A stretch of 64,000 nt of DNA, taken from Thauera sp. K11 (GTDB lineage: Bacteria; Pseudomonadota; Gammaproteobacteria; Burkholderiales; Rhodocyclaceae). The translations under genes were made by a program, and so were the position numbers. The DNA lies in assembly GCF_002354895.1 (NCBI RefSeq), contig NZ_CP023439.1:124001-188000 (forward strand). The letters are read 5' to 3'. A model generated the notes under the pieces. It was not told where the DNA came from. It saw only the letters and a list, made by a program, of their open reading frames with translations, and ran no database searches. This document shows, piece by piece, positions 41,816-44,775 of the stretch (positions are counted from its first letter, which is position 1; each line of letters opens with the position of its first letter).

Positions 41816-43123
41816 ATGAGTCAGACGCCGATCCGCCGGCTCGATGCCCGCGATCCCGAGTTCCTGCCCACCCTCGATGCCCTGCTCGCCTTCGAAGCCG
41901 AGGCCGACGAGCGCATCGATGCCGCCGTGACCGAGATCCTGCGCGCGGTGCGCAACGTGGGCGATGCCGCGGTGGTCGAATACACCCGCCGGTTCGATGC
42001 GCTGGACGTGCATTCGATGGCGTCGCTGGAACTGCCGAAGTCGGACCTGCGCGCCGCCCTCGACGGCCTGAGCGTGGAACAGCGCGACGCGCTGCGCACC
42101 GCCGCCGACCGCGTGCGGGTCTATCACGAGCGGCAGCGGAGCGAGTCCTGGGAATACGCCGAGGCAGACGGCACGCGCCTGGGCCAGAAGGTCACGCCGC
42201 TCGACCGCGTCGGCCTGTACGTGCCGGGCGGGCGCGCATCGTACCCGAGTTCGGTGCTGATGAACGCCATCCCGGCCAAGGTGGCCGGCGTCGGCGAACT
42301 GATCATGGTCGTGCCCACGCCGCGCGGCGAGCGCAACCCGCTGGTGCTGGCGGCGGCGGCGATCACCGGGGTGGACCGCGTGTTCACGATCGGCGGCGCA
42401 CAGGCGGTGGCCGCACTGGCCTACGGTACGCAGACCATTGCGCAGGTCGACAAGATCGTCGGCCCGGGCAACGCCTTCGTCGCCGAGGCCAAGCGCCGCG
42501 TCTTCGGCACGGTGGGCATCGACATGGTGGCCGGTCCGTCCGAGGTGCTGATCCTTTCCGACGGCAGCGGCCACGCCGACTGGGTGGCGATGGATCTCTT
42601 CGCGCAGGCCGAGCACGACGAACTGGCGCAGTCCATCCTGCTGTGCACCGACGCGAATTTCATCGATGCGGTGCACGATGCGATCGACCGCCTGCTGCCG
42701 ACGATGCCGCGCCGCGAGACCATCGCGAAGTCGCTCGCCAACCGCGGTGCGCTGATCCGGGTCGACAGCCTCGAGCAAGCATGCGCGCTCGCCAACCGTA
42801 TCGCGCCTGAGCACCTGGAGCTGTCGCTGGAAAACGCCGAGGCGTGGATCGACCACATCCGCCATGCCGGCGCGATCTTCGTCGGCCACTGGGCAGTGGA
42901 AGCGCTTGGCGACTATTGCGCCGGCCCCAACCATGTGCTGCCGACGATGCGCAGCGCGCGGTTCTCGTCGCCGCTGGGCACCTACGATTTCCAGAAGCGC
43001 ACCAGCATCGTCAATATTTCCGCGGCAGGCGCCCAGCACCTGGGCAGGATCGCGTCCATCCTGGCCCATGGCGAGGGTCTGCAGGCGCATGCCCGTTCGG
43101 CGGAGATGCGGCTGAAGGTTTGA
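41816..43123 (+). CDS. hisD: Histidinol dehydrogenase
   Basis: HisD performs the last two oxidations to L-histidine using NAD+ and zinc. The 435 residues contain [20 protein letters not shown], the catalytic His/Glu segment RIAPEHLEL and GPNHVLPT. The start at 41816 has GAGGA upstream (41803-41807, in the hisG end). In relatives hisC follows directly; here the next 578 bases carry no gene but two palindromic repeats, and hisC is on the other strand. Confidence 0.96.
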
Positions 43124-43239
43124 GCGCCTGCCGGCGCGCGCCTCGTTTCACGATCATACGAACCGGTTGCGCCGACATGTCCCGGGAATGCCGTGAGGCG
43201 ATCAAGGACTGATGGCGAGTCTCGTCGCGACCACGCGAG

Positions 43240-43337
43240 TCAGGCGTGTCCGGGGTATTCATGGCGCGGGCGAGGACTGTCCGAGCCCGAAGGGCGAGTT
43301 CCGCAGCCCGCAGAATGAATACCCCGGGCGCGCCTGA
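43240..43337 (+). repeat. Palindromic repeat, copy 1
   Basis: Two 23-nt arms (43240-43262 and 43315-43337) are complementary at 21 positions, with the other two able to form G-U pairs. The inner arm ends are GGGGTATTCAT and ATGAATACCCC. The 52-nt centre contains GGCGAGGACTGTCCGAGC (43269-43286) and GGGCGAGTTCCGCAGCC (43292-43308), both found exactly in copy 2. The element looks like a dispersed extragenic palindrome. Confidence 0.85.
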
Positions 43338-43430
43338 CGGATAGAACGCGCTTGCTCACGGAGTCGCAATACCGGCCTCCTGTGCTGAAGGACGGCTTCA
43401 TTGGTGAGAGGCGTTCGTTGCGGCCGATCC

Positions 43431-43539
43431 GCCGGTGCTGCGCGGGGTGTTCGCTCTGCCGGCTGCGGAACTCGCCCTCGCTGCGCTCGGTGCTCGGACA
43501 GTCCTCGCCGGCGCCGCGAACACCCCGCACATCACCGGC
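43431..43539 (-). repeat. Palindromic repeat, copy 2 (opposite orientation)
   Basis: Arms at 43431-43454 and 43516-43539 are complementary at 22 of 24 positions, with inner ends GCGGGGTGTTCGC and GCGAACACCCCGC. The two core blocks of copy 1 occur here exactly, in reverse orientation, at 43492-43509 and 43461-43477. The arms differ from copy 1 (TGTTCGC against TATTCAT) but stay self-complementary. Confidence 0.85.
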
Positions 43540-43701: not shown

Positions 43702-44775
43702 TCAGCAACCGAGGATTTCCTTCAGCGCATCCACCAGGATTGCGCACTGCTCGTCCGTCCCGACCGTGATGCGCAGGAACTGGTCGATCCTCGGTGCCCG
43801 GAAGTGGCGCACGATGATCGCGCGCTTCCTCAACTCCGCCGCCAGTTCGGCACCGTCGCGCCGCGGATGGCGGGCGAAGATGAAGTTGGCTGCCGACGGC
43901 AGGACCTCGAAGCCGAGTGCGGCCATCCGCGAAACCAGAACCTCGCGGGTAGCGATGACCTTGCGGCAGCTTTCCTGGAAGTAATCCTCGTCTTCCACTG
44001 ACGCGACCGCTCCTGCGATCGCCAGCCGATCCAGGGGATAGGAGTTGAAGCTGTTCTTGACTCGCTCGAGCGCCTCGATCAGCGACGCATGGCCGGCGGC
44101 GAAGCCCACGCGCAGGCCGGCGAGCGAGCGGCTCTTGGAGAAAGTGTGGGTCACCAGCAGGTTGGGGTGGCGGTCGACCAGGGCGATCGCGCTGTCGCCG
44201 CCGAAATCCACATAAGCCTCGTCGATCACCACCACCGCCTCCGGATTGGCGGCGACGATGCGTTCGACGTCCGCCAGCGCGAGCAGCCGGCCGGTGGGCG
44301 CGTTGGGGTTGGGGAAGATGAGCGCCCCGGCGCGGTCGTCGCCCCGCGGCAGGTAGTCCTCCACCCGGATCGAGTAATCCTCCGCAAGCGGGATCGTGCG
44401 GTGCTCCACGTCATACAGGCTGCAGTAGACCGGATAGAAGCTGTAGGTGATGTCCGGGAACCACAGCGGGCGGTCATGCTTGAGCAGCGCCATGAAGGCG
44501 TGCGCGAGCACCTCGTCCGAGCCGTTGCCGACGAAGATCTGCTCCGGCTGCAGCCGGTAGCGCTTCGCCAGTGCCGCCTTCAGCGCGTCCGCGTTCGGGT
44601 CCGGGTAAAGGCGCAGGGTATCGCCGGTGGCGGCGCGGATGGCTTCCAGGGCCTTCGGCGACGGGCCGCAGGGGTGCTCGTTGGTGTTGAGCTTGACGAG
44701 CTTGTCCAGCTTGGGCTGCTCGCCCGGCACATAGGGGGTCAGGCCGTGGACGACGGCGCTCCAGTAGCGGCTCAT
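43702..44775 (-). CDS. hisC: Histidinol-phosphate aminotransferase (inverted within the his cluster)
   Basis: HisC transaminates imidazole-acetol phosphate to histidinol phosphate. The 357 residues start [20 protein letters not shown] and include [14 protein letters not shown], the pyridoxal-phosphate lysine segment [20 protein letters not shown] and [10 protein letters not shown] near the end. The ATG at 44775 fits the family; frame beyond it is not homologous. It is the only his gene of this cluster on the minus strand, lying between hisD and hisB in the normal position but flipped, so it needs its own promoter. Confidence 0.95.

Follow-up and report, generated by a model that had tools for sequence, protein, structure and literature searches.

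Two hairpins of about 100 nt that occupy the gap between hisD and hisC in Thauera sp. K11 belong to a dispersed family in which the internal loop, GAGGACTGTYYGAGC ... GCGAGTTCCGCAG, is near-invariant and the stems vary with compensation, and the fold of these hairpins is under selection. Comparison of sequences demonstrates that the fold and the loop sequence are kept while the letters of the helices drift, and that the same holds at one orthologous locus across species. As to what the element does, we regard it as about an even chance that it is a selected, folded, REP/BIME-like intergenic element, that the folded single strand is its working form and that this strand is read by a factor other than a Y1 REP transposase.

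The hisD-hisC gap and the copies elsewhere in the genome

The window, i.e., the whole stretch of 64,000 nucleotides that was analysed, is 93% coding according to a gene caller based on codon usage, which was retrained with the his genes and their neighbours and recovers the his genes. The gap of 578 bases between hisD and hisC holds both hairpins (Table 1). A repeat search places the two palindromes where they had been predicted, and element 2 is recovered with element 1 as the query at 79% identity. The two blocks of 18 and 17 nt that the original prediction described as shared in opposite orientation are found by eye as well: elements 1 and 2 are exactly identical at GGCGAGGACTGTCCGAGC and GGGCGAGTTCCGCAGCC, and their arms differ but pair. 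The covariance-model match for element 1 lies at positions 167258-167320 of contig C1. Compared to 200 dinucleotide shuffles, the DNA folds of elements 1 and 2 have z-scores of -7.7 and -6.2, respectively, on the conserved strand and of -6.1 and -4.8 on the opposite strand; the RNA folds of the conserved strand reach -9.8 and -8.4 against dinucleotide shuffles.

Table 1. Positions in the window of the two hairpins, their parts and the neighbouring genes
Feature	Position	Strand	Remarks
Element 1, hairpin of ~100 nt	43239..43338	+	3' of hisD, sense to hisD; apical segment short (7 nt)
Element 1, arms	43239-43271/43306-43338	+	33 nt each, 85% complementary (repeat search)
Element 1, 5' conserved loop block GAGGACTGTCCGAGC	43272..43286	+	
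Element 1, apical segment, variable	43287..43293	+	
Element 1, 3' conserved loop block GCGAGTTCCGCAG	43294..43306	+	
Element 2, hairpin of ~109 nt	43431..43539	-	3' of hisC, sense to hisC; apical segment long (16 nt)
Element 2, arms	43431-43463/43507-43539	-	33 nt each, 85% complementary (repeat search)
Element 2, 5' conserved loop block GAGGACTGTCCGAGC	43492..43506	-	
Element 2, apical segment, variable	43476..43491	-	
Element 2, 3' conserved loop block GCGAGTTCCGCAG	43463..43475	-	
hisD	41816..43123	+	neighbour, convergent with hisC
hisC	43702..44775	-	neighbour, convergent with hisD as is normal in the genus

The core recurs far beyond the window. The 5.29-Mb genome contains 49 exact copies, 24 on the plus and 25 on the minus strand, compared to none for the reversed-pattern control; the recurrence is not chance, and the window pair is confirmed as two members of a dispersed family. 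A shorter exact core pattern adds no copies to the 49 in this genome, a core pattern with a choice of C or T at two positions matches 55 copies, and a covariance model detects at least 74 at E <= 0.001 among the best 150 of the 6372 first-look candidates, which were the ones scored. As judged by eye, 22 of the 49 exact copies form a younger subfamily with near-identical arms and flanks; the arms of the remaining 27 differ widely. Many copies of the younger subfamily (e.g., L017-L021) precede a degenerate second copy, one hairpin being intact and its neighbour decaying. At another locus (L031, near position 20650 of contig C1) three elements, two of them with a variant core, are arranged in direct tandem about 122 nt apart.

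It had also been proposed, from the inverted arrangement of the two elements next to hisC, that they took part in a rearrangement, and the elements do adjoin hisC, which runs against the operon. The proposal fails because a convergent hisC is normal in the genus: hisC converges with hisD in 24 of the 24 genus loci where both genes were matched, and 17 of these loci have no element in the gap. Both window elements, moreover, sit on one side of hisC. A causal or mediating role of the pair in the inversion of hisC must be considered refuted. The element is present in the gap at the other seven loci, at six of them by the core pattern and at the seventh (L260), which has one core change, by eye; the pattern-matched copies are sense to the preceding gene. 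In two genus genomes without the element (L265 and L266) an ordinary inverted repeat is seen by eye in the hisD-hisC gap, as if the two were alternatives.

Selection on the fold

Two sets of copies were used for the analysis of the arms. The diverse set comprises 86 copies from 293 candidate rows (overlapping-locus duplicates included), with their 28 arm letters agreeing at fewer than 22 positions. In this set, 90.3% of arm cells are paired compared to 78.4% after shuffling, cells changed on both sides number 98 versus 36, and the covariation score is 0.241 versus 0.083; pairings slid out of register leave 27-51% paired. The number of pairs with any double change (5 versus 4.9 shuffled) and the number of further pair types (23 versus 21.2) show no excess in these 86 copies. 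The Thauera set retains 77 of 102 copies, the 25 copies of the subfamily having been dropped, and covers 30 arm positions including three loop positions. Here, 84.9% of arm cells are paired, the mean and maximum of 200 shuffles being 56.0% and 58.1%, and changes on both sides number 616, compared to a shuffled mean of 177 and maximum of 213. Slid pairings give 33-47%, and arm pairing drops past about -31/+30. G-T pairs are present in the arms of both sets.

The helix of the Thauera copies is interrupted by a 3x3 internal loop at -9..-7/+6..+8 that remains unpaired. At one non-Watson-Crick position of this loop, A stands opposite G in 39 of the 77 copies, C opposite A in 24, and other combinations occur in 14; the mismatches covary, with a mutual information of 0.95 bits, whereas 1000 shuffles do not exceed 0.17. 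Because kinship of copies can inflate covariation figures, the orthologous hisD-hisC locus carries most weight. When the hisD-side window copy is compared with its counterparts in four genomes, out of the six others that bear the element at that gap, there are 5, 6, 5 and 5 double compensatory changes, 1, 0, 3 and 0 broken pairs, and an unchanged 3x3 loop. The suggestion that the compensatory change between the arms of the window pair reflects selection for a folded DNA or RNA is thus borne out by two copy sets, by the 3x3 loop and by four orthologues; the arms of further copies, tested in the genome of Thauera sp. K11 and in other Thauera copies, proved self-complementary as well.

Quasipalindrome correction by template switching makes the arms of palindromes match. 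It could, in principle, keep the palindromes perfect and produce covariation without selection, the element being a neutral by-product of this process. Such correction, however, would remove unpaired loops, whereas the core loop is near-invariant across phyla. This invariance is partly a matter of row selection because most core letters are prescribed by the search pattern, so that more weight goes to the 49 copies of this genome, to the looser pattern and to the covariance model. The 3x3 loop, for its part, keeps its mismatches, which covary as such, and the helices stop at the borders given above. A neutral origin of the covariation therefore appears very improbable to us.

In the selected structure that we favor, the working form would be an arm helix of about 31 bp broken by the purine-rich 3x3 loop, followed by the conserved asymmetric loop and then by a free apical hairpin. 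Within the asymmetric loop, pairings drawn by hand would include GA/GCA, GGA/TCC, CTGTYY and a tandem GA/GA.

Gene ends, pairs and possible cassettes

As many as 48 of the 49 exact copies lie outside predicted genes. With respect to the flanking genes, 24 are in tandem gaps in sense orientation, 12 in tandem gaps in antisense orientation, 11 between convergent genes and 2 between divergent ones; the baseline, drawn from the window and nine 20-kb stretches, consists of 75 gaps of at least 100 nt, of which 37 are tandem, 10 convergent and 28 divergent. A gene 3' end faces 47 of the copies at a median distance of 101 nt, and 28 cores are located 60-110 nt from it. Being multi-copy, extragenic and near gene 3' ends, the family has what is expected of REPs in these respects. 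The bias with respect to the replication strand is weak (30 versus 19).

Copies often lie close together, and one member of a pair commonly has the short apical form and the other the long one. Close neighbours in this genome face outward in eight cases and inward in one, the window pair, and three are direct; in four relatives, 16 close pairs are outward and five inward, two of the latter in the hisD-hisC gap, so that the five Thauera genomes together have 24 outward and six inward close pairs. In other groups, among the matches listed, 14 pairs are outward, none is inward and four (Barnesiella and Nitrospira bins) are direct. The spacers of the Thauera pairs that were compared have no homology to one another, which means that these pairs are not necessarily mobile units.

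A unit of two hairpins, about 470 bp long, occurs at two places (L371 and L372) of a gammaproteobacterial bin in opposite orientation, with 91.7% identity over 471 bp; the similarity ends at both borders, where no target-site duplication is seen by eye. In three Gallionellaceae genomes, all nine pairs less than 2.5 kb apart face outward among the matches listed. In seven of eight retrieved Gallionellaceae pairs (L363-L370), 0.4-2.3 kb apart, the enclosed stretch has one or two frames of sufficient length for accessory genes; in the eighth (L370) there is only a short gap between the paired elements. Eight enclosed proteins were scanned: one pair, AAA_21 plus RloB, matches the PADLOC system AbiLi/AbiLii, an Mrr_N domain is present in one protein, and no Pfam family could be assigned to five. 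It is possible that the Gallionellaceae pairs are gene cassettes with inverted ends. Integron attC cassettes, with their sites in direct orientation, were rejected as a model, the nine pairs listed being inverted without exception. The repeat ends are 48-84% identical within a unit, compared to a mean of 59% and a maximum of 78% between units, and homogenisation within units is therefore not general. Separate units beside the element in the Gallionellaceae arrays are presumably CGTC-tagged repeats. In Phascolarctobacterium (L245:4589-7478), two inverted copies with near-identical arms bracket about 2.8 kb, and the enclosed frames, as read from their translations, resemble halves of a chromate transporter.

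The position at 3' ends and the excess of sense over antisense copies (24 versus 12) would also fit an RNA role. The element may be transcribed at the 3' ends of mRNAs, where its loop would bind a protein or nuclease and so stabilise, process or terminate the transcript, dispersal being incidental. This is a serious rival to a single-stranded DNA form, and we give it a substantial probability that nevertheless falls well below even. It would account for the very stable RNA folds, for the facing 3' ends with only 2 of 49 copies in divergent gaps against 28 of 75 in the baseline, for the sense orientation of the pattern-matched hisD-hisC copies and for the G-T pairs in the arms. Antisense placement is common elsewhere, however, including 12 of 36 tandem copies in this genome and 9 of 19 in the diverse group, and the outward pairs and the duplicated two-hairpin unit require a DNA process. 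Neither the window nor the 15 loci searched out of 120 listed have an Rfam match at the gathering score; in the E-value mode, nine matches far below gathering scores were obtained on the element, mostly to microRNA precursor families.

Distribution, partner enzyme and relation to known repeats

When one genome per species was scanned with the core pattern, at least 120 stretches matched, which shows range, not prevalence. Among the matches listed, the core is found in Thauera, Azoarcus, Gallionella, Nitrosomonadales, other Gammaproteobacteria, Nitrospira, Lachnospiraceae, Phascolarctobacterium, Coriobacteriaceae, Eggerthellaceae, Bacteroidales, Desulfobulbaceae, Endomicrobium, Gastranaerophilales and several candidate-phylum genomes. 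Many of these records are metagenome bins, so that single cases may be mis-binned, and the phylum names follow the record titles. As to the genus, long stretches of 4 of 7 loci in records titled Thauera align at 81-88% (best hits) to the loci that we count as Thauera, and no comparable alignment was obtained for one Azoarcus and one Dechloromonas locus. All 16 genomes picked from the positives have 2-21 exact copies each, with controls at 0, and a 2.35-Mb Nitrospirales chromosome record (a metagenome-assembled genome) has 13. In a spread sample of 398 Pseudomonadota genomes only two contain an exact match, Thauera sp. K11 included; a looser pattern matches 42 of 199 family genomes, some of them by chance, and the covariance model has matches in 26 of 29 genus genomes. 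Thauera sp. K11 is the richest in the element among the genomes examined. A 34-nt query matched nothing in phages and E. coli; it matched eight plasmid records, none at 80% query coverage, and these are not convincing (three were inspected, with no result). These distribution counts describe an element that is old, occurs sporadically and is multi-copy where it is well represented. A second architecture is present at several loci of other family genomes (L109, L121, L122, L125 and L133-L135): the core is the same, the arms are different and, as is also the case in Gallionella, extra blocks of the GAGCAGCG type lie farther out.

The likeness to REP/BIME elements that the original prediction drew stands as far as dispersal, intergenic position and frequent inverted pairing are concerned, and it does not extend to a REP-associated tyrosine transposase (RAYT). 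The corresponding domain, Y1_Tnp (PF01797), has no match in the genome of Thauera sp. K11, and it does not track the element in the 199 family genomes or in 28 chosen ones. It could be argued that this is a conventional REP family, and that the RAYT by which it was mobilised has since been lost from this genome. The element is indeed extragenic, palindromic and often paired, some Y1_Tnp is present in 101 of the 199 family genomes, and GTAG at the left foot, though confined to a minority, exceeds the controls (9 of 77 Thauera copies versus 1, 1 and 2). Yet the richest genome examined is the one without a match, and Y1_Tnp occurs in eight and is missing in seven of the 15 family genomes with at least five pattern matches. 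It is likewise absent from 7 of the 16 element-bearing genomes of other groups, one of which has 21 copies, and present in the other nine; within the genus it is found in 6 of the 12 genomes tested. With 68 of the 77 copies lacking GTAG at the foot and a length of about 100 nt rather than 20-50 nt, we consider a lost RAYT unlikely. A RAYT-dependent REP was accordingly set aside as a class both for the length and GTAG-type tag and for the cognate Y1 transposase. MITEs have conserved terminal inverted repeats, and the arms of the element differ between copies. Among the neighbours of 80 of the 120 listed loci, no informative protein family is repeatedly encountered next to the element; the largest shared group, 11 frames in nine loci, consists by eye of ABC-type ATPases, and other groups include translations of repeats.

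Returning to a folded single strand read by a factor other than a Y1 transposase, we infer that a putative factor of this kind would recognise the strand most likely as single-stranded DNA during replication, and that such an enzyme may have copied paired units in a REPIN/BIME fashion, within and between genomes. Resident copies would then remain under selection, probably since the hairpin acts at gene ends; selection in place agrees with a host role no less well than with a selfish one. More tentatively, and at somewhat less than even confidence, we propose that this is a previously unnamed mobile or domesticated nucleic-acid structure: a conserved asymmetric loop of about 28 nt in arbitrary stems, multi-copy in at least six phyla, served by a putative horizontally spread non-Y1 factor and forming, in Gallionellaceae, inverted-ended cassettes of accessory genes, one unit being phage-defence-like. 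A search of open-licence PMC with literal core strings on both strands and by concept found no paper naming the element among the matches listed, which is no proof of absence.

As a rule, dispersed bacterial palindromes are confined to particular lineages, and those best known are linked to RAYTs. Here, the loop sequence is common to phyla whose copies otherwise have nothing in common, the evidence for a selected fold is strong, and there is no known enzyme. Which protein reads the conserved loop is a concrete and testable question, and, should the arrangement seen in Gallionellaceae prove general, accessory and defence genes may be moved by the element as well.

Several described repeats can be compared with the element, as far as the relevant parts of their descriptions go. 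The triplex motif of PMC4666352, as presented there, is a different motif. CGTC-tagged palindromic repeats (PMC3733652) are likewise dispersed palindromes found in many species without a dedicated transposase, but they carry CGTC at one end. The Thauera GTAG-1 REPs of the same source belong to the same genus but have 5-bp stems and are not this element. The betaproteobacterial repeat element BRE of Bordetella (PMC3110155), compared by its description, is about 90 bp long, GC-rich and mostly intergenic, with one copy in Azoarcus EbN1; unlike our element, it is often in tandem. The STAXI motif (PMC2864571) is also an intergenic structure, for which its authors considered action as single-stranded DNA and lean to RNA, but it consists of pseudoknot repeats near DNA-handling genes. 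The closest parallel is with the REP/BIME/REPIN systems and their TnpA_REP (RAYT) enzymes, which, in the portions of PMC8266576, PMC2817692 and PMC3733652 that bear on this, are likewise dispersed extragenic palindromes, with inverted pairs and with a position at gene 3' ends; in E. coli REPs, according to the same portions, the folded strand needs an unpaired bulge. In contrast to these systems as described there, the element is about 100 nt long rather than 20-50 nt, has no general GTAG tag, and lacks a RAYT in the genome of Thauera sp. K11; its loop sequence is common to several phyla and its stems are free. The element is REP/BIME-like in position and pairing, but it departs from RAYT-dependent REPs in two of their defining features.
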